From: Verrucomicrobiia bacterium
GTDB taxonomy: Bacteria; Verrucomicrobiota; Verrucomicrobiia; Limisphaerales; DASXHY01
DNA length: 64,000 bases
Reading direction: 5' to 3'
NCBI GenBank assembly: GCA_035629175.1
Contig: DASPIL010000103.1
Location: 1 to 64,000 of the forward strand
In this document: positions 2,155 to 62,816 of the stretch, piece after piece
How positions within the stretch are numbered: position 1 is the first letter of the stretch
Layout: the number at the start of each line of letters is the position of its first letter
The notes under the pieces: model-generated
Database searches by the model: none
The model's input: the letters and a program-made list of their open reading frames with translations, nothing else
What the model was told of the DNA's origin: nothing
Translations under genes and position numbers: made by a program

Positions 2155-2505
2155 ATTCAAAGTGGTGCATCCGGCAGGAGGTGGCTTCCCAAGCCCTGCA
2201 ATATTGGGCCCCAATGGAATAGTTCGCTGTCGCGGAACTGCGCGTGGCTCGCCTCCTCGGGATCTGCTTCGGAAAAGGAATCAACATCCTGGATGAAGAA
2301 GTTCAAATCCACATGGATCGCTTCATGGAATTGAATCGCTTTGGAAACCAATGGGAATGCTCACGGTGGAAGTGGCGAAACACCAGCATCTGCGGGGTAA
2401 TTTCACTCTTTCGACGTTTTTCCATTCTCACATTTATTTTCATTCCGGTGACGAGTTCGCAGCGGGTTTGAGAAAAACGCGCAATTTGTTGCCCTTTTGA
2501 GAGAG
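2155..2505. other. Intergenic, no convincing gene
   Basis: The stretch between the tRNA-like element and tRNA-Gly has only short open frames with no recognisable domain. I see nothing I can name in it. Confidence 0.35.
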
Positions 2506-2579
2506 TGGAGCGGGTGAAGGGAATCGAACCCTCGTCTCAGCCTTGGGAAGGCCACATTCTACCATTGAACCACACCCGC
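2506..2579 (-). tRNA. tRNA-Gly (anticodon CCC)
   Basis: Read on the minus strand, the gene has acceptor stem GCGGGTG/CACCCGC, D arm GTTC...GAAT, anticodon loop TTCCCAA, a 4-nt variable loop, T arm GAGGG-TTCGATT-CCCTT and an encoded CCA. The anticodon is at positions 34-36 as CCC, reading GGG. The outer part of the anticodon stem uses two G-U pairs, so the exact frame of the loop should be confirmed by a tRNA folding program. The amino acid identity is clear from the overall glycine-type sequence. Confidence 0.9.
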
Positions 2580-2673
2580 GCTCACAACCTGTTTTCGTTT
2601 AGCAGATGGCCACAGCTCATGCAATCGCCGTTTTTTTCTTTTACCACCGAGGGCGCGATAAGCCGGCGATACA

Positions 2674-2691
2674 GCAGGTTTCGAAACCTGC
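2674..2691. repeat. Intergenic 18-bp perfect palindrome
   Basis: GCAGGTTTCGAAACCTGC is its own reverse complement and lies between tRNA-Gly and the next gene, preceded by AAGCCGGCGATACA. I recall similar palindromes scattered between genes in verrucomicrobial genomes. It may be a dispersed hairpin element or a terminator. Confidence 0.5.
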
Positions 2692-2822
2692 GCTGCACAT
2701 TCCTGCGGAAAACGTCACAGCCGCTTTCGCTGCATTGGGAACAACTTGCCAAAAGGTTGTGAGCATCTGTTTCTTGAGACCGCGTCGATCCGCGGTATGA
2801 TCATCCCGATTATTGCCAGGCT

Positions 2823-3053
2823 ATGACACTTGAAATCTTCAGCTCCTCCTGGGTCGTTTTTTACGACTGGTCCGAATGCGCCTATGACGTGATCACCGGT
2901 TCAGAATGGCTGAAGCGCGATCGTGAGCATTGGCTGCATCAACACATGCCAACGCGGGTGATGCTCGACATCGCCGAAAGCGAGGCCGACGCCCAGCAGC
3001 GATTGAAGGATCTTGCGCGGCTTCGAACCCTTCAGGCGATCCATGAATCCTGA
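2823..3053 (+). CDS. Small hypothetical protein (76 aa)
   Basis: The predicted product is 76 residues with a mixed, protein-like composition. The N-terminal half is rich in aromatic residues (SSSWVVFYDWSECAYD) and the C-terminal half is charged and helical (AESEADAQQRLKDLARLRTL). I do not recognise a domain. Codon choice resembles the neighbouring genes, which supports it being real. It precedes the nucleotidyltransferase gene by about 190 bp on the same strand. There is no signal peptide. Confidence 0.45.
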   Translation: MTLEIFSSSWVVFYDWSECAYDVITGSEWLKRDREHWLHQHMPTRVMLDIAESEADAQQRLKDLARLRTLQAIHES

Positions 3054-3107
3054 TAATGAGCCCACTGGGTCGCGTGAAATAATTGCCCTGCGGATTCGCC
3101 AACGCTG

Positions 3108-3129
3108 AAGCGGCGCGAGCGCCGCGCTT
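3108..3129. repeat. GC-rich intergenic hairpin
   Basis: GCGGCGC and GCGCCGC face each other across GA, with further AAG/CTT pairing outside. It lies in the gap before the nucleotidyltransferase gene. It could be a terminator for the small upstream gene or another dispersed palindrome. Confidence 0.4.
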
Positions 3130-3243
3130 CTCCGGCCCCAAGCAGCAGTTGATCGCGCGCTTGCGAAACGGATCGAAATCCGAAACGTTGCAGCGGACGC
3201 ACTCTGGCATTTCGGACCGACGGCCGCAGGCGACGCGATCCGC

Positions 3244-4614
3244 ATGAACATACCCGATGAACTGAAGCGCCTGTTGGGCAAAGTCCCGGCATTGGCTCGC
3301 GCTTATCTCGTGGGCGGGTTTGTAAGAGATGCGTTGCTCGGAATTCCGCACCACGATTTTGATATCGAGGTCTATGGCGTTGATTATGAAAGCCTGGCAC
3401 GGGAATTGGCCGCTCATGGGCGCGTGGATCGGGTCGGCAAATCGTTCGGGGTGGTGAAGTTTGCGGGGCGAAACGGCGCGCAATGGGACTTCAGTGTGCC
3501 GCGGCGGGATTCAAAAACATCCGCGGGACACAAGGGGTTTCAGATCGAATTCGATCCGAACATTGAACCGCGCGAAGCCGCCAGGCGCCGGGATTTCACG
3601 ATCAACGCGCTGATGTTTGATCCGCGTACGGGGGAATATCTCGATTTCTTTGGTGGACGCGATGATCTGCAGCGGCGGGTGCTTCGCCACACAAGCGCGG
3701 CGTTCGTGGAGGATCCATTGCGTGTGCTTCGCGGAATGCAATTTGCCGCGCGTTTCGACCTTGAGCCCGCGGGTGACACCATCGAGTTGTGTCGTTCCAT
3801 CGTCCATACGTTTCCTGAGCTTGCGGTCGAACGGGTCGGCGCGGAGTGGTTTAAGTGGGCGGAGTTGAGCAAGCGTCCATCTGCCGGGCTGCGGTTCCTG
3901 AAGGAGACGGGCTGGTTGCAGCATTTCCCGGAAATCGCCGCGCTGGATGGGACCCCGCAGGATCCTGAATGGCATCCGGAAGGGGATGTGTTCACGCACG
4001 TGTGCCATTGTTGCGACGCGTTGGCGGAATTGCTGGAACGCCAGCCGCTGGATTCCACCGCGCGTCAGGTGCTGATGTTTGCCGTCCTCGCGCATGACTT
4101 CGCCAAGCCGCAGACAACTCACACAGCCGAGCGCGAGGGGCGCCTCCGCATTGTTTCCCCTGGGCACGAGGAACAGGGAGGCCCGCTCGCGGAATCTTTC
4201 CTGACGCGGATCAATGCACCCAATGAATTGAAAGAGCGGGTGGTGCCACTCGTTACGCATCATCTCGCGCATCTTCAAACGGCGACGGATCGGTCGGTTC
4301 GCAGGCTCGCGAATCATCTCAAACCCGCCACCATTGAGGAACTTTGCCTCGTGATGACGGCGGATCATTTTGGCCGTCCTCCCAAGCCGCGGGTGCTGCA
4401 CGAGGGGATTACCGCGCTGCGGAACAAGGCACACGCACTGCGCCTGCAGGAATCCGCGCCGAAGCCGATTCTGCAGGGCCGTCATCTGATCGCGCGCGGG
4501 ATGCAGCCGGGACGGCAGTTCGGCACCCTGCTGGACGCCGCGTTCGAGGCGCAGCTGGAGGGCTGCTTTGCCGACCTGGACGGCGCGTTGAAGTGGCTGG
4601 ACGAACGCGTGTGA
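3244..4614 (+). CDS. cca: CCA tRNA nucleotidyltransferase with HD domain
   Basis: The 456-residue protein begins with the class II nucleotidyltransferase fold: YLVGGFVRDALLG at about 21-33, the catalytic DFDIEVYG at about 39-46 and RRRDFTINALMFD near 116-128. The RNA-binding part has HTSAAFVEDPLRVLRGMQFA. A C-terminal HD phosphohydrolase module follows (VLAHDFAKPQTTH near 280). This layout fits E. coli-type bifunctional CCA-adding enzymes, which add or repair the tRNA 3' CCA. A poly(A) polymerase role cannot be excluded by eye. Both confident tRNA genes in this window encode CCA, so repair would be the likely use. The gene converges on xfp with a 26-bp gap. Confidence 0.82.
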   Translation: MNIPDELKRLLGKVPALARAYLVGGFVRDALLGIPHHDFDIEVYGVDYESLARELAAHGRVDRVGKSFGVVKFAGRNGAQWDFSVPRRDSKTSAGHKGFQIEFDPNIEPREAARRRDFTINALMFDPRTGEYLDFFGGRDDLQRRVLRHTSAAFVEDPLRVLRGMQFAARFDLEPAGDTIELCRSIVHTFPELAVERVGAEWFKWAELSKRPSAGLRFLKETGWLQHFPEIAALDGTPQDPEWHPEGDVFTHVCHCCDALAELLERQPLDSTARQVLMFAVLAHDFAKPQTTHTAEREGRLRIVSPGHEEQGGPLAESFLTRINAPNELKERVVPLVTHHLAHLQTATDRSVRRLANHLKPATIEELCLVMTADHFGRPPKPRVLHEGITALRNKAHALRLQESAPKPILQGRHLIARGMQPGRQFGTLLDAAFEAQLEGCFADLDGALKWLDERV

Positions 4615-4640
4615 TCATCAGCAGCCTTCGTGATAGGGCA

Positions 4641-7070
4641 CTATGCGTTGTCTGCTTCCGTGGAGCTTTTCTTGGACGACACCGTCCATTTCCACCCCCA
4701 CTTCCAGCCAAGGACTTCAGGAAGATCTTCGCCGTGCTCGCGGATGTAGGCACGATGATCGATCAACCTGTTGTCAATTTCCTGCCGCACATAAGCCGCG
4801 CGTGATCCGAGCTGCGGCAGTCGATCGATCACGTCGCGCACGAGGTGAAAGCGATCCAGATCGTTGAGCACGCACATGTCGAATGGCGTCGTCGTGGTGC
4901 CTTCCTCCTTGAAACCACGCACGTGGAGATTGCGATGATTTGCGCGGCGATAGGCGAGACGATGGATGAGCCACGGATATCCGTGAAAGGCGAAGATGGT
5001 CGGCTTATCGGTCGTGAAGAGCGCGTCGAATTCCTTGTCGCTCAATCCGTGCGGATGCTCGCTCGGCGGCTGCAGCTTCATGAGATCGACGACGTTGATC
5101 ACGCGAATTTTCAGCTTCGGCAGGTAATGCCGCAGCAGGTCAACAGCCGCAAGGGTTTCCAGAGTGGGAACGTCGCCGCAACATGCCATCACGACATCGG
5201 GTTCACTGTTCTGGTCATTGCTCGCCCAATTCCAAATGCTCACGCCAGCAGTGCAATGCTTGATAGCTTCATCCATCGTCAGCCACACAGGCGCGGGTTG
5301 TTTGCCCGCGACAATGACGTTCACGTAATCGCGGCTGCGCAGGCAATGATCGGTCACGCTGAGCAGCGTGTTCGCATCGGGCGGCAGGTAAATGCGGATA
5401 ACGTCGGGCTTCTTGTTCGCAACATGGCCAATGAAACCGGGATCCTGGTGGCTGAATCCGTTGTGATCCTGCCGCCAGACATGCGAGCTGAGGAGGTAGT
5501 TCAACGATGCGATGGAACGGCGCCACGGAATTCCATTGCACACCTTCAGCCACTTTGCGTGCTGGTTGAACATGGAATCGATGATGTGAATAAACGCTTC
5601 GTAGCAACTGAAGAATCCGTGCCGGCCAGTCAGCAGGTAACCTTCAAGCCAGCCCTGGCATTGATGCTCGCTTAATACTTCCATCACGCGTCCGTCGGGC
5701 GAAAGGTGATCGTCTTCGGGCAGTGTTTCTGCAACGTGACAGCGATTGGTAACTTCCAGGACATCCTGCCAGCGGTTTGAATTATTTTCGTCGGGACTGA
5801 ACAGCCGGAAGTTTTTTGTTTCCAGGTTGAGCTTCATGACATCGCGCAGGAACTTGCCCATGACGCGTGTGGCCTCGGCCGGAGTTCCACCTGGCGAGGA
5901 AATCTTCACAGCGTAGTCGCGGAAATCTGACAGCTTCAAATCGCGCAACAACAAGCCGCCGTTTGTGTGCGGATTGTCGCTCATCCGGCGATGGCCTTTT
6001 GGGGCAAGCTCCGCAAGTTCAGGAATCAGCCGGCCGTTGTCGTCGAACAATTCGTGAGGCCGATAACTCTTCATCCAATTCTCCAGAACCTTGACGTGGC
6101 CTGCTTTTTCCATGTCGCCCATCGGGACCTGGTGCGCGCGCCAATAATCCTCGCACTTCTTGCCATCGATGGCCGCGGGACAGGTCCAGCCTTTAGGCGA
6201 GCGCAGAACGATCATTGGCCACGCTGGGCGGCCGTGGAATCCACGCTTCCGCGCCGTTTTCCAGATCGTGTGAATGTCATCGATGACAACGTCGAGAACG
6301 GAAGCCATGCGCTTGTGCGTTTGCAGCGGGTCACGGCCCTCCACGAAGTGAGGTGTGTATCCGTAGCCTTCGAGGAGCTTTGTAAGTTCGTCTTCCGGAA
6401 TGCGCGCGAGGATGCAGGGGTTTGCAATTTTGTATCCATTCAGATGCAGGATTGGCAGAACAGCTCCATCCCGCACGGGATTCAGAAACTTGTTTCCATG
6501 CCAGCCTGTTGCAAGCGGGCCCGTTTCGGCTTCGCCGTCGCCAATCACGGTCGCAACGATCAAATCCGGATTATCGAACGCCGCACCGAATGCATGTGAC
6601 AGCGAGTATCCCAACTCCCCGCCTTCATGAATTGAGCCTGGAGTTTCAGGAGCCACGTGGCTGGGGATGCCGCCGGGAAACGAGAACTGCTTGAAGAGGC
6701 GCTTCATGCCGGTTTCGTCCTGCGACACATTGGGATAAACCTCGCTGTAGGTGCCCTCGAGATAGGCGTTCGCCACAATGCCAGGCCCTCCATGCCCTGG
6801 GCCCGTGATGTAGATCATGTTGAGGTCGTGCGACCTGATCACGCGGTTCAGATGAACGTAGATGAAGTTCAATCCTGGCGTGGTTCCCCAATGTCCCAGC
6901 AGTCGCGGCTTAATGTGCGCCGGCTTCAGCGGCTTCTTCAGGAGCGGATTGTCGTAAAGGTAGATCTGTCCGACCGACAGGTAATTGGCAGCTCGCCAAT
7001 ACGCATCCATCCGCCGCAACTCGTCCTTCGAGCGCCGCTTCGTTCCGTGATTATTGCGTTTCGATTTCAT
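4641..7070 (-). CDS. xfp: Xylulose-5-phosphate/fructose-6-phosphate phosphoketolase
   Basis: The 809-residue thiamine-diphosphate enzyme splits xylulose 5-phosphate (or fructose 6-phosphate) with phosphate into acetyl phosphate and glyceraldehyde 3-phosphate (or erythrose 4-phosphate). It has the family length and signatures: [10 protein letters not shown] near 90, [20 protein letters not shown] near 133-152, the ThDP-binding [19 protein letters not shown] near 178-196, and a [14 protein letters not shown] stretch in the C-terminal half. Its start overlaps the end of ackA by 20 bp, so the two are translated from one transcript. The product acetyl phosphate is the substrate of the upstream kinase. 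Confidence 0.95.
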
Positions 7071-8286
7071 GATAGCTGGCCTCTACCGGCATTCCGAGGA
7101 CCTCACAAACGCTGCGCGCGATCATCCATTCCTCATCGGTCGGAATCACCCGAATGGTGACACGGCTCGCGTTGCTTGAAATGACAGGTGCGTTTTGTTG
7201 ATTGCGCGGCAGATCGACTTCCATTCCGAGAAAACCCATGCCCTCACAGATGCGCGCCCGCACTGGATGGGAATTTTCGCCGATACCGCCCGTGAATACG
7301 ATGGTATCCAAGCCGCCGAGAGCGGCTGCGAGCGCGCCGATCGCTTTCCTGATTGAATAGCAGAAGACTTGAACCGCCTCCGCCGCGCGATGATCCGACG
7401 ATTCGCGTTCAAGCAATTCGCGCATGTCAGAGCTGGTCTCGGAAATGCCGAGCAACCCGGATTCAGAATTCACCATTTTGTTCCAGCGGCTGGCGCTCAT
7501 CCGTTCGGTGCGTGACAGAAACCACGGCAAGCCTGGGTCCAGGTCCCCCGACCGGGTGCTCATCGGAACGCCCGCCGCTGGAGTGAATCCCATCGTGGTA
7601 TCGATTGCCCGTCCATTGTGCACTGCGGCCAGGCTCGCGCCGTTTCCCAGGTGGGCAAGGATCGACCTGCCTTCAGCCGCGGCAGGACCCGCAACCCGCC
7701 CCAGTTGTTCAACGATGAACGCATAGGAAAGGCCGTGAAACCCATAACGTTGAATTCCGCGATCATGGAATCGGCGGGGTATCGGCAGCATCCGCGCGCG
7801 CAATGGGAGATCGCGATGAAACGCCGTATCGAAGCAGGCCACCTGCGGAAGATTTGGATGCCGCGAATGGAAAGCTTCGGTCAGCCGAATCTCGTCGGGT
7901 AAATGTTCGGGATCGAACGGTTCGAGGCTCCGAAGTGCCTTGACGAGTTGAGGAGAGATTCGCTGGTGCGCGCGGTATTCAGGACCGCCATGCACCACGC
8001 GATGGCCAGCCGCCACCAGGCGGTCCGATGCAATGTTTTCATCGATCCATTGCATCAGAATTTCGACGGCTGCCTTATGATCGGGCGCAGTTACGGACTG
8101 CGTCCGCTGCGGTACACCTGGCTGCCGAAGCACCAGTTGGGAGTTGGCCTGGCCGATCCGCTCAATCTTGCCCATCAGCAGGCGCTGCAAATTACCTGCG
8201 ATGGAAAACGCAGCGAACTTGATGCTTGAGGACCCTCCATTGATGGTCAACAAGCACGGCGATGTGATGCCATTCCCGTTGTGCAT
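7051..8286 (-). CDS. ackA: Acetate kinase
   Basis: The 411-residue protein interconverts acetyl phosphate plus ADP with acetate plus ATP. The N-terminal phosphate-binding signature is [14 protein letters not shown] at about 12-25. The second signature, [10 protein letters not shown], is near 91-100. The ASKHA core continues with [37 protein letters not shown] and FTGGIGENS. The gene is first in a two-gene operon with xfp, forming a phosphoketolase shunt that makes ATP from pentose or hexose phosphates without loss of carbon as CO2. The upstream 230 bp hold its promoter, not resolved here. Confidence 0.93.
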
Positions 8287-50982: not shown

Positions 50983-51400
50983 GTCGCTACTGTGTGATCC
51001 CGCGCGGGGTTTTCGCAATCCGATTTCGAGGTCCAGCTTGGATCCGCATTCGTGCAACCGTGATGCATTGCGAACCCGCGGCAGCTCCAGGACTCCTCGT
51101 CAAATGGAGAGCCGAAGCGGGCATGGTTCGATAGCACCATCCCTTATTCACCCCATTAATGGCAAAAAAATCGTGAGATCTTTCCCAAACTTTGCTTGCG
51201 CGGGTTTGGACGGCTGTTAAGAATTCGCGCCATCATCAAGCGACAGTCGCGTGTTAGCCTTGGCAGAATGCGCGATATGGGCGGCTCTTTTTTGCTTTCA
51301 GGAAAAGCAACAGAGGGCTTGCAAGCGCAGTGATGATGCCTGGCCCAGCGCGATGGTTCAGGAGTGGAAGCGGTGGAATGTTCGGACTGAAACGAAAATA
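50983..51400. other. Intergenic upstream of the respiratory operon
   Basis: This 418-bp gap must hold the promoter of the ten-gene act operon and that of the divergent SGNH gene. An A-rich run (GGCAAAAAAATCG near 51161) and AT-rich patches are present, but I see no clear -35/-10 pair or operator. No gene is supported. Confidence 0.4.
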
Positions 51401-52054
51401 ATGTCAGCGATTTTCCCAAAATGGACCAACAGGTTGCCGTTGTACTTCATCATCGGCCTGCTGTTGGTGGGGTCTGCCGTGACGGCAGGCGTCTGGTATT
51501 ACTGCACTCCGAAGTACTCGCGTGTCGGATATCAGCCGATCCAGCCGGTTCCGTTCTCCCACGCCACGCACGCGGGACAGCTCGGAATGGATTGCCGCTA
51601 TTGCCATAACAACGTCGAACAATCCTGGTTTTCGAACATCCCGGCGGCCTCCACGTGCATGAACTGTCACAACCAGGTGCTGAAGGATGACCCGCGGCTT
51701 GCGCCCGTGCGGGAGAGCGCCGCGAGCGGGAAGCCGATCCCATGGGTGCAGATCCACAAGCTCCCCGACTTCGCTTACTTCAATCACTCCGTCCATGTGA
51801 ATCGTGGAATCAGCTGTGTGGAATGCCATGGGCGCATCGATCAGATGGAGGAAGTTTACCATGCGAAGCCGTTTTCAATGGCTTTCTGCCTGGAATGTCA
51901 TCGGCAGCCGGAAACGCGTTTGCGTCCCGTCGACAAAGTCACAGACCTTGCGTGGCAGCCGGAATCGCCCGCCAAGCAGCTGGAGTTCGGACAGCGCGCG
52001 ATGAGGGATTGGAAAGTCGAATCGCTGCAAACCTGCTCAGCCTGTCACCGCTGA
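51401..52054 (+). CDS. actA: Alternative Complex III subunit ActA, pentahaem cytochrome c
   Basis: The 217-residue protein has an N-terminal membrane anchor (LYFIIGLLLVGSAVTAGVWY) and five CxxCH haem sites: CRYCH, CMNCH, CVECH, CLECH and CSACH. It takes electrons from the iron-sulfur subunit of ACIII and relays them across the complex. It is first in the operon, 107 bp before actB. An upstream frame to 51251 has no signal or haem sites, so I chose ATG at 51401, where the membrane anchor begins. Confidence 0.92.
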   Translation: MSAIFPKWTNRLPLYFIIGLLLVGSAVTAGVWYYCTPKYSRVGYQPIQPVPFSHATHAGQLGMDCRYCHNNVEQSWFSNIPAASTCMNCHNQVLKDDPRLAPVRESAASGKPIPWVQIHKLPDFAYFNHSVHVNRGISCVECHGRIDQMEEVYHAKPFSMAFCLECHRQPETRLRPVDKVTDLAWQPESPAKQLEFGQRAMRDWKVESLQTCSACHR

Positions 52055-52085: not shown

Positions 52086-52161
52086 CTTCAATCGGTGTCC
52101 CTGACGTGGCGGCGTGGAGCCGTCCTGGGTGGCAGCCTTTGAAAATCGTCATCGGCCGGCA

Positions 52162-55100
52162 ATGAGCAAAACCATTCCCCCAGTTTGTCCTGAACCGGAA
52201 ACGGGCCGTCGTTATTGGCGCAGCCTGGATCAATTGGCCGAGACGCCGGAGTTTCGCCAGTGGCTCGAACGCGAGTTCCCCCAGGGCGCCAGCGAGTTCA
52301 CCGACGAGGTTTCCAGGCGGCACTTCGTCAAGATCATGTCCGCCTCGTTCCTGCTCGCCGGCCTTGGATTGGGCGCGACTGGATGCCGACGGCCTGTGGA
52401 GCGGCTTGAACCGTTCGGCAAGCAGCCCGAAGGCTACGTTCACGGCGTCCCGCAATTCTTTGCAACGGCAATGCCCACGCGCAGTGGCGCGGTTCCGCTG
52501 GTGGCAAAGTCCTACGAAGGACGCCCGATCAAGGTCGAAGGCAATCCGCTGCACCCCGACAGCAACGGCGGAACTGACCGCTGGTCGCAGGCATCGATTC
52601 TCAACCTTTACGATCCGGATCGGTCACGCCGCTTCACGAAGGGTGGAACGAACGTCGCGCCCGAAGCGGCGTTTGATTTCCTGAAGGAACTGTCTGCGAG
52701 TGCCCAGCGTAACGGAGGCCAGGGCCTCGTGTTTCTCCTGGAACGCAATACATCGCCCTCGCGCCAGCGCTTGCAGCAGGTCGTTGCCCGCAAATTCCCT
52801 CAGGCGAAATGGTTCGTCCACGAAGCCATCGACACCGACATCCATCGCCGCGCCGCATCGGAGGCTTTTGGCGCGTCGGTGAAGCCTTATTTCCACTACG
52901 ACAAGGCGAAGGTCATCCTCTCGCTCGACTGCGATTTCATTGGGGCGGAAGAAGATGTTCATAACAACATCCGCAAGTTTGTGGATGGGCGCCGCATCGA
53001 AACGCCGAAGAGCGAGATGAATCGCCTCTACGTCGTCGAAGCGTTGATGACGCTGACTGGCGTCAATGCGGATCATCGGTTGCGCACGGCATCCAGCAAG
53101 GTCGGCGCGATTGCCGCGGCGATTCTCACCCAACTCAATGGCGGCCAGGCGCAGGTTCCGGCAGGTGTAAACAACTCGTGGATCACTGAATGCGCGGCCG
53201 ACCTGAAGGCACACGCGGGGCGCTCGCTCGTTGTTGCCGGTTATCGGCAACCGCTCGAAGTTCACCTTCTCGCGCATGCGATCAATGCGGCCCTGAACAA
53301 CATTGGCCAGACCGTGGTGCTGCACGAGACTCCTGCATTCAATGCGGGCAGCCTCGCTGAGCTGGCTCAAGCGCTGAACGCAGGCCAGATCGAAACGTTG
53401 GTGATGCTTGGCGGCAATCCCGCCTACACGGCCCCTGCGGATCTTGATTGGCTGAACGCGCAGGCGAAGGCAAAAAGCGTGGTGCGTCTCGGCTACTACG
53501 AGGACGAATCGTTCCAGATCACCAAGCGCGCCAACGATTGGCATTTTCCCGCAGCGCACTATTTGGAAAGTTGGGGCGATGTTCGCACCAGCGACGGCAC
53601 GCTCGTTCCGATCCAACCGCTGATTGCGCCTTTGTTCGGCGGTGTCACTGAAATCGAAATCCTTGCGCGCATCGCGGGCGAGGAAGTGGTCAAGCCGTAT
53701 GACATCGTGCGCCAGACCTTCGCTCAAGCCGGCGGATCGGCCGATGACCTCGCGTGGACTCGCTTCCTCCACGACGGTTTCCTGCAAGGGTCTGCGGCAA
53801 AGCCCGCCAGCGCGCGCGCAAACGCAGGCGCGCTTTCACAGGCTGCTTCCCGCATTCAGGCAGGCAATCCATCCAGGGACAGCCTCGAGGTGGTCTTTCA
53901 TCGCGATTACAGCCTGGATGACGGGCGGTTCACGAACAACGGATGGCTCCAGGAACTTCCTGATCCCATCACAAAATTCGTTTGGGACAACGCGGTTCTC
54001 ATCAGCCGCAAAACAGCCCGCGAACTTGGCGTCAAGAATTCGGATGTCGTCGAGGTGAAACTCGGCAATCGTTCCCTTCGCGGACCGATCTGGATTCAGC
54101 CTGGAATGGCTGATTACACGATCGGCCTCGCGCTCGGTTACGGCCGCGAGCTTGCCGGCCGCGTTGGCAGCAAGGTCGGATTCAACGCCTACGCGATCCG
54201 CAGTGCAACGGCCGGCGATATTGTGGTTGGGGCAACGGTTGCCAAGACTTCCGACACGTATCCGATTGCCTGCACGCAGGATCATTGGTCGATGGAAGGG
54301 CGCCCGCTGGTTCGCGAAGGCACCCTCCAGCAATACAGCGAGAATTCACATTTCGTGAAGAACATGGACGGGCACCAGCCGCCGGGCGGCAACCGTTCGT
54401 TGTATCCGAATCCTTTCGACAAGGATAAGGAACGCGCGCATCACCAGTGGGGTATGGCAATCGACCTTGGCGCGTGCGTCGGCTGCGCCACCTGCACGAT
54501 CGCGTGCCAGAGCGAGAACAACATCCCGATCGTTGGCAAGGACCTGGTTTCTCGCGGCCGCGAAATGCACTGGCTCCGCATCGACCGTTATTATGCGGGC
54601 CCGGCGGCGATGCATCGTTGGGAGTCGATGTTCACCGCAGACACTTACAAGAACGAAGACCAGCAGCAGTTCGAGGAATGGATTGACGATCCGCAGGTGG
54701 TGACGCAGCCGATGCTTTGCCAGCATTGCGAATCGGCGCCGTGCGAGAACGTTTGTCCCGTCAACGCGACCGTGCACGACCAGGAAGGCCTGAACGTGAT
54801 GGTTTACAACCGTTGCGTCGGCACGCGTTATTGCTCGAACAACTGCCCGTATAAGGTTCGCCGCTTCAATTATCTCGATTACAACAAGCGCCCGCTGAAG
54901 GACCTGAAGGGGCCGTTCTATCCGCCGTCGTTTGCGAATGGAGCGTTTTCAAAGTGGGTCAAGGATCCGACCGATCCGACAGCAGGCATGCGCGAAGAGG
55001 ACGAATGGGATCTCATCAAGATGATGAAGAATCCGGACGTCACGGTCCGCATGCGCGGAGTGATGGAGAAGTGCACGTTCTGCGTTCAGCGCATCGAAGG

Positions 55101-55491
55101 TGCGAAGATCGCGCAGAAGGTCAAAGCTGGAGCTTCAGGCGATGTCATCGTTCCTGACGGCACCTTCACGACAGCGTGCGCCCAGGCTTGCCCTGCGGGA
55201 GCCATTGTATTTGGCGACATCAACGACGCGAACAGCAAGGTTTCAAAACTGAAGGCGCAGGAGCGGAATTATTCCGTATTGGACTTCCTGCTGACGAAGC
55301 CGCGGACGACCTATCTGGCGCGCTTGCGCAACCCGAATCCGCGCATGCCCGATTACGCCGATCCCGCGACGGAATACCCGTTGAGCCTGGATGAGTACAA
55401 GATGAGAAATGGAGACCCGTTTGGACATCATGGCGAACATGGCGCAGCGGAAGCCGGAACAGGCGCCAGTGTTGAGAAAGGACATCACTAA
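52162..55491 (+). CDS. actB: Alternative Complex III subunit ActB, molybdopterin-oxidoreductase-like iron-sulfur protein
   Basis: The 1109-residue protein begins with a Tat-type signal ([20 protein letters not shown], with a Cys at about 75 that may be lipidated). It continues with a molybdopterin-oxidoreductase-like region of about 650 residues, which in ACIII lacks the cofactor. The C-terminal third has iron-sulfur ligands: [18 protein letters not shown] near 770, [47 protein letters not shown] and [12 protein letters not shown]. These would carry electrons from quinol to ActA. It shares one base with actC (TAATG). Confidence 0.93.
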
Positions 55492-56942
55492 TGTCTGCCA
55501 AGGTGAATAACGCTGCGTTGCCGACGGTTCCCGCGGAGCTCGCGCGAATTCCTCTGGTTCAGAACCAGCGCGACATTGGCTGGATTTCTGATCGGGTGGT
55601 ATCCATCACTGAAGGCCGGCCCCCGCTCTGGTGGTGGGCCTGTTTCATCCCGAGCGTGCTCTGCCTGGGAATGCTTGGCTTCATGCTGGCTTACCAGATC
55701 ACGACCGGCGTTGGCGTCTGGGGAAACATGCACCCGGTCATGTGGGGCTGGGACATCATCAATTTCGTCTGGTGGATCGGTATCGGCCATGCAGGAACGT
55801 TGATTTCAGCGATTCTCTTCCTGTTGCGGCAGCGCTGGCGCACGGCGGTGAACCGCGCCGCCGAAGCCATGACGATCTTTGCCGTCATGTGCGCCGGCAT
55901 TTATCCGGCACTGCACGTGGGCCGCGTTTGGTTCGACTGGTGGCTGTTCCCAATCCCGAACTCGAACGGCCCGATCTGGCCGCAGTTTCGTTCGCCCCTC
56001 ATGTGGGATGTGTTCGCGGTTTCGACCTACTTCACCGTATCCGTGTTGTTCTGGTACATGGGATTGATCCCCGACCTCGCGGTAATGCGCGATCGCGCGA
56101 CGAGCAAGATTCGCCAGTTCCTTTACGGACTGTTCTCGCTCGGCTGGACGGGATCGAATCGCCACTGGAGCAACTACGAAAAAGCCTATTTGCTGCTCGC
56201 GGGCCTCTCGACACCCCTCGTGTTGTCCGTGCACTCGATCGTGTCATTGGACTTTTCCGTGTCGCAGTTGCCTGGCTGGCACACGACGATTTTCCCGCCC
56301 TACTTCGTGGCAGGCGCGATCTTTTCAGGATTCGGCATGGTTCTGACGCTGTTGATTCCGCTGCGCAAGTTGTGCCACCTCGAGGACATCATCACGATGC
56401 GGCACATCGACATCATGTGCAAAGTGACGCTCGCGACTGGCTCAATTGTCGGTTACGCCTACGCGATGGAGTTCTTCATTGCCTGGTACAGCGGCAGTGC
56501 GGCAGAGCAGTTCCACTTCATGAACCGCGCGCTCGGCCCTTATCAATGGGGCTGGATTCCGATGATCGCATGCAACGTCATCATCCCGCAATTATTCTGG
56601 TTCAAATGGTTCAGGCAGAACCTGATTGCCGTGTTCATCCTTTCAATCATCGTCAACGTGGGAATGTGGTTCGAGCGATTCGTGATCATCGTGATCGGCT
56701 TGCATCGTGATTTCCTGCCGAGCAGCTGGGGATACTTCCGTCCGACGTGGGTCGACATCTGCACGTATCTGGGAACGTTCGGCTTGTTCTTCACCATGTT
56801 CCTGCTGTTCATGCGTTTCCTGCCGATGATCGCGATTTCCGAGGTGAAGGGCGTGACGCCGCAGTCGGATCCGCATCATCCCATGGGTGGAGCCAAGCAT
56901 GAGGAAAGAATTCCTGAGTCTGAAGGAGGTTTGACGCCATGA
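55491..56942 (+). CDS. actC: Alternative Complex III subunit ActC, NrfD/PsrC-like membrane protein
   Basis: The 483-residue polytopic protein has about ten membrane spans and the NrfD/PsrC pattern, starting with [37 protein letters not shown]-like helices and [20 protein letters not shown]. In ACIII this subunit binds quinol near the outer face. It follows actB with a 1-bp overlap and overlaps actD by ATGA, so all are translated in step. The C-terminal tail is cytoplasmic-type and charged. Confidence 0.93.
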
Positions 56943-57475
56943 TTACCGCCAGACCGTACGGTATCATTGCCGAGTTCACGAATCCCGCGGCGATCATGCA
57001 CGCGGCCGAGAAAGTCCGCGACGCAGGGTTCTCGCGCTGGGATGTTTACACGCCATTTCCCGTGCATGGAATGGACCGTGCGATGGGATTGAAGAATTCG
57101 AAGGTCGGATGGTTCTCCTTTCTCGGAGGGGTGGCCGGTTACACCACCGGAATGCTGATGATCTGGTGGATGAACGCGGTGGACTATCCTCTGGTCGTCG
57201 GCGGCAAGCCGATGTTCAGCCCGTTCGCGGCGTTTCCGCCGTCCTACGAACTCACGATTCTGTTCGGCGCGTTTGGCGCGTTGGGTGGCATGCTGTTCTT
57301 GAATCGCCTGCCGCGGTTGCATCATCCGCTTCTCAAGAATCGCCGTTTTGCCAAGGTGACTCACGATCGCTACTTCCTCGTGATTGAGACGAGTGATCCG
57401 AAATATTCCGAAACCGGCACGGTGAAGCTGTTGAAGGATGCCGGCAGCAATCACATTGAGGTGGTGGAGGAGTAA
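56939..57475 (+). CDS. actD: Alternative Complex III subunit ActD (DUF3341)
   Basis: The 178-residue protein has the DUF3341 pattern: [40 protein letters not shown] and [20 protein letters not shown], with two membrane spans (about 57-80 and 96-120) and a C-terminal soluble part ending [13 protein letters not shown]. It is a structural membrane subunit of ACIII with no cofactor. It overlaps its neighbours on both sides (4 bp and 1 bp). Confidence 0.93.
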
Positions 57476-58134
57476 TGCGCTATTTCCTTTTAATCTTTGG
57501 TATCACAGTGGTCGCAATCATGGCGATCGCGGGCCGTCGATTTGATGACGGCGGCGCCATGTCGCGCAAACCGCCGCTGTATATTTTTCCCGACATGGAC
57601 CGCCAGCTGAAGCTGCGTCCGCAGGAACCCAACGCGTTCTTCGCCAATGGCCGCAGTTCCCAGCTGCCCGTTCCAGGAACCGTCGCCCAGGTGAAACCGA
57701 AAATGGTTTCGGGGCAGCCTGTGTTTCCGTTCGAAGACGTTCCCGTGAACACGGGGCACATCGCTGGAACCACCAATTTTGTTGAAGTCAATCCACTGCC
57801 GATCAACGCGGAACTCCTCAAGCGCGGCCGGCAGCGCTTTGCCATTTCGTGCGCACCCTGCCATGGTGCAACCGCGGATGGAAATGGAATCACCAAGAAG
57901 ATTGGTGCGATGGCGGTTGTTGCAAATCTGCACGACCGGCGAATTGTGGAAATGACCGACGGGGAGCTGTTCCATGTCATCACCCATGGCCGCAACCTGA
58001 TGGGGCCGTATGGACCAACAGTTCCGACGGAAGATCGCTGGGCGATCATAGCGTATCTGCGCGCGCTGCAGTTGAGCCGGTTGGGAACGATCGACGACGT
58101 GCCGCAGGAGCTGCGGGGCACTTTGACTAGGTAA
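57475..58134 (+). CDS. actE: Alternative Complex III subunit ActE, monohaem cytochrome c
   Basis: The 219-residue membrane-anchored cytochrome has an N-terminal span (YFLLIFGITVVAIMAIAG), a conserved IFPDMDRQLKLRPQEPN segment, and one CAPCH site with FAISCAPCHGATADGNGITK. A distal Met in GRNLMGPYG likely completes the haem. It is the outlet of ACIII toward soluble or downstream cytochromes. It starts at the last base of actD. Confidence 0.92.
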   Translation: MRYFLLIFGITVVAIMAIAGRRFDDGGAMSRKPPLYIFPDMDRQLKLRPQEPNAFFANGRSSQLPVPGTVAQVKPKMVSGQPVFPFEDVPVNTGHIAGTTNFVEVNPLPINAELLKRGRQRFAISCAPCHGATADGNGITKKIGAMAVVANLHDRRIVEMTDGELFHVITHGRNLMGPYGPTVPTEDRWAIIAYLRALQLSRLGTIDDVPQELRGTLTR

Positions 58135-58137
58135 ACT

Positions 58138-59424
58138 ATGAGTTCGCATTCCAAATCTGCCAAACAGACGCCGTTCGATCTTTCGCGCTGGCGGAATGTG
58201 CCGGCGTTATTGATGTTCGGCGGCGGCGCGGTGACGCTGATCGGCGCGCTCGTGAGTTTCCTGGTGCTGAAGGACGGAGGAAAGAACTTCGCGTTTTCCT
58301 GGCTGGTCGCCTACATGTTCTGTCTCAGCATTTGCCTTGGCGCACTGTTCCTCGTGCTGGTCCATCATTTATTTGATGCAGGCTGGTCTGTTCCCATCCG
58401 CCGGTTTAACGAGCATATCGCTTCGATGTTGTTTCCCTGGATGGCGATTCTCTGGATTCCCATCGCCCTGTTCTCAAAGCACCTTTACGCCTGGATGACG
58501 AAGAACCCGGAAATGGATCACGCGCTTCATGCCAAGGAGCCGCTGTTCACAATTCCTGGATTTTACATTGTTTCGGCTGTTTGCTTTTTGATCTGGTGGG
58601 TTCTCACCCGCGGCTTGCGTTCGTGGTCCTTGAAGCAGGACGACGTTGGCGGAGCGATTCCCACCCACAAAATGCGCGGCTATTCCTATTGGGGCATCTT
58701 CGCCTTCGCCGTCACGCTCACGCTGGCCGCCGTGATGTGGATGAAGGGCATGCAGCACGAGTGGTTCTCGACCATGTATGGCGTCGTGTATTTCGCAGGC
58801 AGTGTGTGGATGACCCTCGGTTTGGTTTACATCATCACGGCGTTGCTCGACCGGCAGGGAATCCTGACCGACGTGCTGCATGAGCATCAGTATTATTTCA
58901 TCGGCTCGCTGATGTTTGCGTTCACGGTGTTCTACGCCTACATCCATTTCGCGCAATACTTCATCATCTGGAACGGCAACATTCCGGAGGAGACCTTCTG
59001 GTATTTGATTCGCGAGAAAGGAACCTGGTTTTTCGTCGGGATGATTATCATCTTCGGTCATTTCTTCATGCCTTTCCTCGCCTTGCTGCGGATTGACCTG
59101 AAGAACGTGTTTCCATATATCGCGGCAATTGCTGGCTGGAACTGGCTGATGCATTACTTCGACATGGCGTTCCAGATCAAGCCTGTGCTCTATACGGAAG
59201 GATATCCCCTGCGCTGGCTGTGGCTGGATATCGGCATCCTGGCGTTCATGGTGGGATTGCTGGCCAAGGTGTTCATCGCCAAATTCGCGAGCGCCGCTCC
59301 GTTCCCGACAAAGGATCCCCGTTTGATCGAAGCGATGGGACATTATCATCCTGTCCCGACACAGATTTCCGGCGGCGAGCTGGATGAGTGCGATGACGGG
59401 CCGCAACCCGGACACGCGAAGTAA
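58138..59424 (+). CDS. actF: Alternative Complex III subunit ActF, membrane protein
   Basis: The 428-residue polytopic protein has about ten spans, starting LLMFGGGAVTLIGALVSFLV, and includes QYYFIGSLMFAFTVFYAYIH and FAQYFIIWNGNIPEETFWYL, a pattern of ACIII ActF and related ActC-like subunits. It is thought to form the membrane core beside ActC, with a possible proton path. It starts 3 bp after actE and is 4 bp from the next gene. Confidence 0.92.
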   Translation: MSSHSKSAKQTPFDLSRWRNVPALLMFGGGAVTLIGALVSFLVLKDGGKNFAFSWLVAYMFCLSICLGALFLVLVHHLFDAGWSVPIRRFNEHIASMLFPWMAILWIPIALFSKHLYAWMTKNPEMDHALHAKEPLFTIPGFYIVSAVCFLIWWVLTRGLRSWSLKQDDVGGAIPTHKMRGYSYWGIFAFAVTLTLAAVMWMKGMQHEWFSTMYGVVYFAGSVWMTLGLVYIITALLDRQGILTDVLHEHQYYFIGSLMFAFTVFYAYIHFAQYFIIWNGNIPEETFWYLIREKGTWFFVGMIIIFGHFFMPFLALLRIDLKNVFPYIAAIAGWNWLMHYFDMAFQIKPVLYTEGYPLRWLWLDIGILAFMVGLLAKVFIAKFASAAPFPTKDPRLIEAMGHYHPVPTQISGGELDECDDGPQPGHAK

Positions 59425-59818: not shown

Positions 59819-61282
59819 GTGGCCGCCTCGATGAATCCTTCGTGTTCCACCACCGTGGCCTTGGAGCCTGATCCGGCGTTGCGCCGCATCGATGCGTCCG
59901 TCTCGGCACCATTGATAGCGCTGTTTTATGGGAGCGCCATCTGGCTGGTGCTGGGTTCAATCTTCGGCCTGCTCGCATCCATCAAGTTTCACGGACCAAA
60001 CTTCCTGGCGAATTGCGAATGGCTGACCTACGGGAGGCTGTATCCCGCTGCAACGAACGCGCTGCTTTACGGATTTGCGATTCCAGCGGGGCTTGGGGTG
60101 GGTTTGTGGATCATCGCAAGGGTCGGCCGAATTTCTGCAGTGCAGCCCGCGGTCATGGTTTTGGGCGCCAAACTCTGGCACCTGGGTGTCCTGATTGGCT
60201 TAATCCAGATTTTTGCCGGGAACACCACCGGGTTTCAAAGTCTGGAAATGCCGAAATCAGCGGCGGTGCTTCTGTTCCTCGGGTATTCGCTGGTAGCCGT
60301 TTGGACGCTGCTCACGCTGCACGCGAGAACCGTCAGGGCCTTGACTCCAGCCCAATGGTTTCTGATTGCGGCGCTCTACTGGTTCCCGTGGATTTTCTCG
60401 ACCGCACACCTGTTGCTGACGATGTTCCCTGTTCGCGGAGTGACGCAGTCGGTGGTGGCGTGGTGGTTCGCCGCCAACCTGCATATTGTCTGGTTGGGAC
60501 TTGTCGGACTCGCTGCGATTTTCCACTTCATTCCAACATTGATGAATCGCGCCCTGCACAGCGATTACCTGGCGTACTTCACTTTCTGGACCATCATCCT
60601 GTTCGGTGGATGGTGTGGCATCCCGAGCACGGCTCCGCTGCCCGCATGGATGCCCGCGCTCAGCACCATAGCAACCGTTCTCACACTGGTCACAGTCCTG
60701 TCGGTGGTCGTGAATGTGTATCGCACGTGCGGACGCGGCTGTGCGCAAAGTGAGAATCCGGCTCCAGGCAAGTTCATTGCGTTTGGCGCAATGGCGTTCG
60801 TCGTTGCGTGGTTGATGAACGTTGCCGTGGCGCTGACTGAACTGACGCCGTTCCTGCACTTCACGTGGTTTACATTCGCACAGTCGCACCTCAACGTTTT
60901 CGGGTTCTTCAGCCTCACGATGATTGGCGCCATTTATTACATCGTGCCTCGTGCCACGGGCGTTGCCTGGCCATGCGCAAATCGAATCCGGGCAAATTAT
61001 TGGCTGGCGGCCATTGGAACGGTTCTATACGCCGGGCCGCTCGCGATCGGCGGGATCGTTCAGGGGGTCAAAATGAGCAATCCCGAAACCGGGTTCGGAG
61101 CTGTGAGCCGCGCCTACCTCATGCCGCTGCGCATCAGCTCGATCGGTGAAATCCTGATCCTCACCGCGAACGTGCTCCTCTTGTTTAATCTCACTTCCGT
61201 GCTCGTGCGCTTTGCAAGGCAGCAACTGCGGCCTGTGGAAACTTCCTCAACCTCGGCAACCGTTGCGGAGGTGAAATCATGA
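59819..61282 (+). CDS. CcoN-like (cbb3 oxidase subunit I) membrane protein lacking most metal ligands
   Basis: The 487-residue polytopic protein aligns with CcoN along its length (for example GRLYPAATNALLYGF, VVAWWFAANLHIVW, AQSHLNVFGFFSLTMIGAIY). But where CcoN has GRLRPLHTN, WWYGHN, HHLHY and GHVHAG, this protein has PAATN, WWFAAN, no HH and AQSH. By my alignment only one of six haem/copper histidines (H357) remains. It is thus unlikely to reduce oxygen at a haem-copper site by itself. The start is GTG at 59819, with ATG at 59831 as alternative. It overlaps the CcoO-like gene by ATGA. Confidence 0.8.
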   Translation: MAASMNPSCSTTVALEPDPALRRIDASVSAPLIALFYGSAIWLVLGSIFGLLASIKFHGPNFLANCEWLTYGRLYPAATNALLYGFAIPAGLGVGLWIIARVGRISAVQPAVMVLGAKLWHLGVLIGLIQIFAGNTTGFQSLEMPKSAAVLLFLGYSLVAVWTLLTLHARTVRALTPAQWFLIAALYWFPWIFSTAHLLLTMFPVRGVTQSVVAWWFAANLHIVWLGLVGLAAIFHFIPTLMNRALHSDYLAYFTFWTIILFGGWCGIPSTAPLPAWMPALSTIATVLTLVTVLSVVVNVYRTCGRGCAQSENPAPGKFIAFGAMAFVVAWLMNVAVALTELTPFLHFTWFTFAQSHLNVFGFFSLTMIGAIYYIVPRATGVAWPCANRIRANYWLAAIGTVLYAGPLAIGGIVQGVKMSNPETGFGAVSRAYLMPLRISSIGEILILTANVLLLFNLTSVLVRFARQQLRPVETSSTSATVAEVKS

Positions 61283-62202
61283 ATTACGGCGCCTTGATTT
61301 TTCTGGCTGCGTTCGTCGGCATTTCCGCTTCCTGGTTTGGGTTCGTCATGACGCCTCAACTCCAATTGGGCAACGCCCGGCAGGGAACGAACACCGTGAA
61401 CACGGCACAGCTCTATCCGCTCGCCCGCCCTGGACTCGCCCAGGAAGGCTTGCAGGTGTACCGCGAGAACGGCTGTGTCTACTGCCACAGCCAGCAGGTA
61501 GGGCAAACGGGAACCGAGGTGAATTACATCCTGACAGAGGCGGGAACAAACGCGGCCGCGGTGGCAGAGGCCCTCCTCAATGCGCGCCTCGGCCTGACCA
61601 ATGCCAACGCGGCAGGATTGGTTGCCGGCCTTCCAAAACCTGTCTTGCGAAATGTCAATATTGCCAGCGCGAAGAAAGCCGCAAAGGCGGCTCGTGAAGC
61701 GGGTGGACAGGGGCAGGTCGAAATTGTTCCCGTAGGCTCTGACATCGAACGGGGCTGGGGCAAACGGAGATCTGTCGCTCAGGATTATCTGTATGATTAT
61801 CCCGTGATGCTGGGTTCCCATCGGATTGGCCCTGACCTGGCCAATGTCGGGACGCGTTTGCCTGATCCCATGTGGCATTACAGGCATCTGTATGCTCCCC
61901 GAACGGTTGTTCCTGATTCCGCAATGCCTTCCTATCGCTTCCTGTTTGAACAGCGAAAGCTGAACCCGGGCCAGCCTATTCCTGAAGAATCCATCGCTTT
62001 GAATGCAGAAGGTGGATTGCATGACCCGGCGAAAGACAGTGCCGCGCCTGCGAGTGTATTGATTCCAAAACCAGAGGCCCGCGCACTGGTCGCTTACCTG
62101 ATCAGCCTGCAAGCTTCGGCGCCGCTGTTTGAAGTTCCGCTTTCTGCTGCCGAGGCGCCCGCCGCCCCGGTCGCGACCAACGCTCCTCCTCCCGCGCAAT
62201 GA
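61279..62202 (+). CDS. CcoO-like membrane-anchored monohaem cytochrome c
   Basis: The 307-residue protein has an N-terminal membrane anchor (ALIFLAAFVGISASWFGFVM) and a CcoO-like cytochrome: GCVYCHSQQVG at about 65-75, then DYPVMLGSHRIGPDLANVGT, WHYRHLYAPR and MPSYRFLF, whose Met likely binds haem. Between CHSQQVG and SVAQDYLYDYP it carries an insertion of about 65-80 residues, Ala-rich and helical, not usual in CcoO. It overlaps both neighbours by 4 bp. It would pass electrons between ACIII and a partner oxidase. Confidence 0.85.
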   Translation: MNYGALIFLAAFVGISASWFGFVMTPQLQLGNARQGTNTVNTAQLYPLARPGLAQEGLQVYRENGCVYCHSQQVGQTGTEVNYILTEAGTNAAAVAEALLNARLGLTNANAAGLVAGLPKPVLRNVNIASAKKAAKAAREAGGQGQVEIVPVGSDIERGWGKRRSVAQDYLYDYPVMLGSHRIGPDLANVGTRLPDPMWHYRHLYAPRTVVPDSAMPSYRFLFEQRKLNPGQPIPEESIALNAEGGLHDPAKDSAAPASVLIPKPEARALVAYLISLQASAPLFEVPLSAAEAPAAPVATNAPPPAQ

Positions 62203-62816
62203 GTTCCTTCGTGAAGCCAACTGAAACGACAGCGTCATCCGCGAACAAGACGCGCGGAGCTGTCGTGCCCATCTGGCTGTTTGTCCTGCTGTTCATGCTG
62301 CTCTATTGGGGAGCACTGTATTTCGATGCGAAGGGTGGATGGTTCAGCGCGAAGGTGTATGCGCCGTTCCACACTGAGGAGGAGGTTGCATCACTGCAGC
62401 CGGGCGGGGGAGGCAACGAGTTTTTCGATCTTGGAAAACAGGTTTACAACAGGCCGACATGTTCCGCGTGTCACATGCCTTCAGGCCAGGGATCGCCAGG
62501 ACAGTTTCCGCCGCTCACCGGTTCGGAATGGGTGTTGGAGGAACATCCCGGGCGTTTCATTCGCCTGGTTCTCTACGGTCTGCAGGGTCCGATCACCGTC
62601 AAAGGACAGCAATTCAACAGCAGCATGGTTCCCTGGAACATGTTGAGTGACGAGGAAGTTGCCGCTGTCATCACCTACGTTCGGCAGAACAAGGAATGGG
62701 GCAATAATGCTTCAGCCGTCACGCCCGAGCAGGTGAAGGCTGTTCGAGAAAAAGTCGGCAACCGCGCCCAGCCGTTCACGGCTGCGGAGCTTCTGCAGAT
62801 CGATCCCACTGAGTAA
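62199..62816 (+). CDS. Membrane-anchored monohaem cytochrome c
   Basis: The 205-residue protein has one N-terminal span (AVVPIWLFVLLFMLLYWGAL) and one CSACH site (CSACHMPSGQGSPGQFPPLT). The haem-binding Met is probably in SSMVPWNMLSDEEVAA. It is the last gene of the operon and may be a CcoP-like outlet or a small electron donor. The stop is followed by 115 bp before the convergent queG gene. Confidence 0.88.
   Translation: MSSFVKPTETTASSANKTRGAVVPIWLFVLLFMLLYWGALYFDAKGGWFSAKVYAPFHTEEEVASLQPGGGGNEFFDLGKQVYNRPTCSACHMPSGQGSPGQFPPLTGSEWVLEEHPGRFIRLVLYGLQGPITVKGQQFNSSMVPWNMLSDEEVAAVITYVRQNKEWGNNASAVTPEQVKAVREKVGNRAQPFTAAELLQIDPTE

Follow-up and report, generated by a model that had tools for sequence, protein, structure and literature searches.

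The locus described here raises a simple question: what is a CcoN-like gene doing in an ACIII operon if nearly all of the histidines that would make its product an oxidase are missing? The window, that is, the whole stretch of 64,000 nucleotides that was analysed, carries on its plus strand, at approximately 51.25-62.82 kb, an operon in which ActA-B-C-D-E-F are followed by a small protein ('x') and by CcoN-like, CcoO-like and CcoP-like subunits (Table 1). The ActA-ActF gene order of an ACIII operon is marked by the ActD Pfam family, NrfD and the c-type cytochromes, and both haem-c subunits of the cbb3 type, CcoO and CcoP, stand beside the CcoN-like gene, a setting already recognized in the preliminary description of this locus and borne out by open reading frames, Pfam matches and synteny. 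ActA probably starts near 51401, inside its open reading frame. A Pfam search returned no family over cut-off for ActF, and 'x' matched neither Pfam nor NCBIfam; kept between ActF and the CcoN-like subunit in many relatives, 'x' is a candidate accessory subunit. Stop and start codons overlap at the CcoN-like/CcoO-like and CcoO-like/CcoP-like joints, and, judged from these overlaps and the gene order, a supercomplex of ACIII with the N, O and P subunits is plausible.

Table 1. Genes of the ACIII operon, with positions in the window and the basis of each assignment.
Product	Position	Strand	Basis
ActA, multihaem cytochrome c of ACIII	51251..52054	+	cytochrome c7 / QrcA-like matches, synteny
ActB, molybdopterin-like + ferredoxin-like	52114..55491	+	FeS cysteine motifs, synteny
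ActC, NrfD-like membrane subunit	55491..56942	+	Pfam NrfD 1.3e-22
ActD	56939..57475	+	Pfam ActD 4.1e-66
ActE, mono-haem cytochrome c	57475..58134	+	Pfam Cytochrome_CBB3 1.9e-13; CxxCH in 91/91 relatives
ActF, membrane subunit	58138..59424	+	position and synteny
'x', small protein, one predicted N-terminal membrane helix	59384..59815	+	ORF, synteny
Dead CcoN-like subunit, 487 aa	59819..61282	+	Pfam COX1, PDB cbb3 CcoN, alignments
CcoO-like, mono-haem c (CVYCH; Met ligand SAMPSY)	61279..62202	+	Pfam FixO 3.2e-25; haem motif in 96/96 relatives
CcoP-like, mono-haem c (CSACH)	62199..62816	+	Pfam Cytochrom_C 8e-12; haem motif in 95/95 relatives

The CcoN-like frame has no internal stop, and chance homology was ruled out by its matches to Pfam COX1 (E 1.1e-35) and to the CcoN subunits of the cbb3 structures 8smr and 3mk7 in the PDB (E 1e-23 and 5e-22), which extend over residues 39-451, the whole membrane domain. 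Against the NCBIfam ccoN model (TIGR00780) it scores 94 bits and does not reach the curated cut-off of 583. Pairwise and family alignments agree on the ligand sites: the TM2 histidine is replaced by A78, the Cu-B histidine of TM6 by A219, the Cu-B pair of TM7 by P269-S270 and the haem b3 histidine of TM10 by Q355, which leaves one of the six haem and Cu-B ligands, H357, the TM10 histidine of low-spin haem b, whose TM2 partner site is A78. The loss of five of six histidines claimed in the preliminary description was therefore counted correctly, and four of its positions stand (A78, A219, Q355 and H357); its TM7 pair, C266-G267, was three residues off, for these residues align to the A-G that precedes the two histidines. 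TM7 has lost its catalytic Tyr too, with G263 at that position. Alignment, which had been proposed as a check, thus puts a histidine at none of the six ligand positions except H357, and with ligands and Tyr gone the protein has, as had been argued, no proper oxidase site. With some other partner, H357 might in principle still bind a haem. A contig scan for relatives gave one match (L007), and an AlphaFold model built from only these two sequences, the window protein and L007, had a mean pLDDT of 40, too low to be of use.

The protein belongs to a family spread over the class Verrucomicrobiia. A profile search found a homologue in 176 of 236 sampled genomes of the class, some of these matches being canonical CcoN, and a search at the level of the order found one in 52 of 58 genomes, a count obtained at a loose cut-off in which some weak canonical-CcoN matches, few in number, are included. 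Matches sampled outside the class score like canonical CcoN, and the two that were checked keep all six histidines and have no ACIII genes nearby. About 95 neighbourhoods from across the class show the order A-B-C-D-E-F-x-N-O-P with hardly any variation, the exceptions being contig ends and some operons in which 'x' went undetected. The ACIII-linked CcoN sequences are bimodal (n = 140): 41 have six ligand histidines, one has five, and 98 have 0-3. We refer to the first two groups together as intact (n = 42) and to the last as dead (n = 98); an early small sample had held three six-histidine members, and class-wide sampling brought them to 41 plus the one with five. The dead form is the majority among the sequences sampled. 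The catalytic Tyr follows the same division, being present in 42/42 intact and 1/98 dead proteins. Among the dead forms a histidine is still found at the six ligand sites in 15, 9, 8, 12, 3 and 17 of 98 sequences, respectively, so that the dead forms do not all share the loss of any one ligand; each site lacks its histidine in 80% of them or more, most sequences keep 0-1 ligands, and the replacing residues vary freely (A, S, Q, N, G, L, R, K and others). Since active versions of the subunit occupy the same operon in relatives, what we see is a decommissioned oxidase and not a new type of subunit.

Three loci from the same sampling are worth recording. The ACIII-linked CcoN of genome G159 (L188/L052) reads H-R-H-H-H-H and has the Tyr, with one Cu-B histidine replaced by Arg, which may show decay at its very beginning or may be a sequencing error. 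In G215 (L107) a mostly dead protein, Y-A-A-H-E-H, keeps the catalytic Tyr, the single such case among the 98. Genome G039 (L170/L023 and L169) has both states, an intact CcoN-O-P set whose ACIII part is cut by a contig end and a dead CcoN in a full ACIII operon.

Loss of the active site has not turned the gene into debris. A pseudogene or an assembly error was ruled out by purifying selection and by open frames in some 50 further genomes from the order-level search; frames are open in nearly all relatives, and dN/dS is not near 1. Close pairs of dead CcoN have dN/dS of 0.11-0.43 and intact pairs 0.08-0.15, and at equal ActC divergence the dead proteins show roughly half the similarity seen among intact ones, that is, they evolve faster relative to ActC. 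Selection on the dead form is relaxed, yet still purifying. In the comparison of 42 intact with 98 dead sequences, 31 scaffold positions rich in Gly, Pro and Trp stay conserved, in 85% or more of the dead and 95% or more of the intact relatives, in keeping with the earlier remark that the surrounding scaffold is retained. The columns lost in dead forms include the ligands, the Tyr (263), R75, R440, S252 and Y327; R75 and R440 are at what we take, from knowledge of the family, to be the positions of the propionate-contacting arginines, and S252 and Y327 are polar residues at K-channel-type positions. No column became newly conserved at the 85% level in the dead forms, and the only histidine column above 60% in them, H393, is retained in intact proteins as well. 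Alternative ligands at new positions were ruled out on these grounds, there being no newly conserved column and no conserved histidine specific to dead forms.

If the subunit does not reduce oxygen, other proteins might, and the search for the real oxidases that the preliminary description had recommended found them outside the operon: two A-type CtaD subunits (854 aa on contig C40 and 609 aa on C107) and a canonical CcoNO fusion with all six histidines (C19). These A-type cox genes do not adjoin the ACIII operon; in other genomes such genes can follow N-O-P directly (e.g., L224-L226). The 854-aa CtaD-type subunit I (L230, positions 2479-7219 for the locus) has a long C-terminal extension, perhaps a fused subunit III; after it comes a protein of 581 aa that carries three haem-c motifs. 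Another member of the COX1 superfamily, a 765-aa protein with HxH and HH motifs (L233 on C76, 3635-5929), had no NCBIfam match at 1e-10 and is, from its sequence, probably a quinol-dependent NO reductase. Across 80 genomes surveyed, an A-type-like COX1 was present in all 53 that have only dead forms (best PF00115 E < 1e-125 in each) and absent from five of the 26 that have only intact ones, a difference with a Fisher p of 0.003, not corrected for relatedness. In G060 and G064 the intact ACIII-linked CcoN is the sole haem-copper oxidase, which supports the intact form as a working enzyme.

The cytochrome partners tell a different story from the core. Every CcoO-like, CcoP-like and ActE sequence examined has its haem-c motif (totals in Table 1), in operons of both states, and the Met ligand of CcoP is retained in 71 of 73 dead operons. 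That of CcoO is retained in 58 of 73, with Cys in 11 and His in three, and these replacements were seen only in operons with a dead CcoN. Such a change is expected to lower the haem potential, and the CcoO of these 14 operons may have another redox role.

Taken together, the bimodal ligand pattern, the class-wide synteny, the intact haem-c motifs, the purifying selection and the co-occurrence with A-type oxidases lead us to regard as reasonably probable that the CcoN-like protein is a catalytically dead cbb3 core subunit, a pseudo-CcoN, kept as the membrane anchor and electron-output arm of ACIII. Alignment and synteny show that it descends from a functional oxidase encoded in an ACIII-cbb3 operon, and many relatives still have that operon intact. 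The cell would have come to rely on A-type oxidases before the site decayed; the sites for haem b, haem b3 and Cu-B were lost together with the Tyr and the K-channel-type residues, whereas purifying selection has preserved the fold in the membrane and the partner cytochromes of the c type. The pseudo-CcoN would anchor the mono-haem CcoO-like and CcoP-like cytochromes on ACIII, and electrons would pass from quinol through the ACIII haems (ActA/ActE) and the haem c of CcoO/CcoP to a separate A-type cytochrome c oxidase, encoded just downstream in many genomes, so that the module itself would no longer reduce O2. The Met replacement in 14 of 73 dead operons and the distance of the A-type cox genes from the operon in this genome count against an electron-output arm, and its main rival is pure structural ballast, in which pseudo-CcoN, CcoO and CcoP are kept for the assembly or stability of ACIII with no productive electron flow (constructive neutral retention). 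Conservation confined to the scaffold and the faster evolution after loss speak for ballast, as does the similar structural role proposed, according to the passage in PMC10715153, for a COX1-like protein of Acetobacter that lacks all metal-binding residues and is kept with ctaB; some decay of the CcoO and CcoP haem motifs would then be expected, however, and they are present in every sequence checked, which makes ballast rather unlikely in our judgement. We consider improbable a new catalytic or ion role, whether quinone or proton handling, as the preliminary description had suggested, or the binding of a different cofactor. The fold is strongly conserved and some charged or polar residues are retained (K56, R101, E143, R170, N299 and R378), but these are common to intact or canonical CcoN, the replacements at the ligand sites vary freely, and the dead forms have lost the K-channel-type residues as well as the propionate arginines and show no newly conserved site, polar or for a cofactor. 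An unusual O2 or NO reductase using other ligands is very improbable: H357 and H347 are present in the window protein and some relatives have 2-3 ligands, but most have 0-1, each site and the Tyr are lost as described above, and every genome tested has other oxidases.

How often the dead form arose was approached through trees, and since a regain of six histidines and the Tyr is not credible, we read changes of state as losses or replacement. The tree of the ACIII core (ActB+C+F) requires 18 changes, at least 14 of them on starred branches, and is consistent with the family codes. The CcoO tree requires 11 (at least four on starred branches) and the CcoO+CcoP tree 12 (at least six), with family f7, which has both states, forming one clade (99, starred); both trees mostly follow taxonomy and mix dead and intact operons. 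On the CcoN tree itself most of the dead forms fall together, as do most of the intact ones, and only 3-4 changes are needed; under the LG model the CcoN data reject the exact topology of the ACIII tree and also a joint constraint of five families as clades. This pattern would fit lateral exchange of a dead N-O-P module, in place of repeated independent decay, as the source of the scatter of dead and intact forms, an origin that we nevertheless find doubtful. The partner trees speak against it, as do two recent losses nested within intact clades even on the CcoN tree (the f67 clade and G218), the absence of any ligand loss common to the dead forms, and mixture-model trees that hold f7 or f73 together and outscore the free tree; the CcoN tree can also be explained by a convergent rate shift. 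A single intact/dead split of CcoN was rejected (AU p 0.022), and none of the mixed-state families f69, f66, f73 and f81 was rejected individually as a clade. A single origin of the dead form was thus weakly rejected by the CcoN data (p 0.02) and is contradicted by the partner-subunit trees. The losses look recurrent, and we read the pattern as repeated loss with convergence of the CcoN sequences afterwards; CcoN may also have been exchanged between operons in some lineages. We lean slightly towards the view that an active ACIII-cbb3 was converted many times independently, at least about six and perhaps 18 or more, to an ACIII with a dead CcoN as its electron-output arm, and that the majority form sampled, including the cbb3 reported for methanotrophs, is not an oxidase.

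The last point bears on published work. A cbb3 oxidase has been described directly beside ACIII in verrucomicrobial methanotrophs and Opitutaceae (passages in a review, PMC8498564, and a genome paper, PMC6688271), and the latter ties it to high oxygen affinity in Methylacidiphilum. AMO-family genes (PF02461) occur in genomes of family f65 (G069, G077, G101, G107, G112, G117, G122, G128, G143 and others), which we therefore take to be verrucomicrobial methanotrophs, and in 11 of 11 AMO/pmoA-bearing f65 genomes examined the ACIII-linked CcoN is dead, reading S-E-S-H-F-V or A-D-A-H-Q-x. In the one studied in detail (G101), two of the other haem-copper proteins look A-type and the rest B-like (561-568 aa) and NorB-like. 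By its position, the published methanotroph 'cbb3 oxidase' beside ACIII is probably this dead module, and genes now read as a high-affinity oxidase beside ACIII are probably only an electron-passing scaffold. A search of the main texts of openly available papers found no description of ligand loss in ACIII-linked CcoN. COX1 and ccoN matches of this kind have been read as high-affinity cbb3 and used to explain low-oxygen growth, as in the Methylacidiphilum passage of PMC6688271, and annotation needs correcting where the form is dead and has no oxygen-reducing site. The family also offers a repeated natural experiment in which an energy-converting enzyme becomes a scaffold: because one and the same operon has an active version of the subunit in some families and a dead one in their close relatives, the role that an oxidase subunit plays for ACIII apart from O2 becomes testable.

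Set against known systems, the window's module resembles the cbb3 oxidases (CcoN/CcoO/CcoP; PDB 3mk7, 8smr) in its CcoN fold, as judged from sequence, in its FixO-type and CcoP-like mono-haem subunits and in their order; it differs in lacking the haem b, b3 and Cu-B ligand set, the catalytic Tyr and the K-channel-type residues, in scoring far under the ccoN cut-off, and in having N, O and P as separate genes tied to ACIII. With the cluster of methanotrophs and Opitutaceae it shares the gene arrangement and probably the very genes, although the passages concerned (PMC8498564, PMC6688271) describe a genuine high-affinity cbb3 and do not mention ligand loss. In the ACIII-aa3 supercomplex of Flavobacterium johnsoniae (Sun et al. 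2018, as reported in PMC8361435), ACIII is likewise encoded with, and here too probably bound to, a membrane subunit of the haem-copper oxidase type, but the partner there is an active A-type oxidase, whereas here it is C-type and dead in most lineages. A parallel to the decay itself is the Acetobacter protein cited in PMC10715153, a 'deranged' COX1-like protein that is also a COX1 homologue without metal-binding residues that is retained in a respiratory gene cluster, with the difference that its cluster is that of ctaB, while the pseudo-CcoN is retained in an ACIII operon together with CcoO and CcoP.
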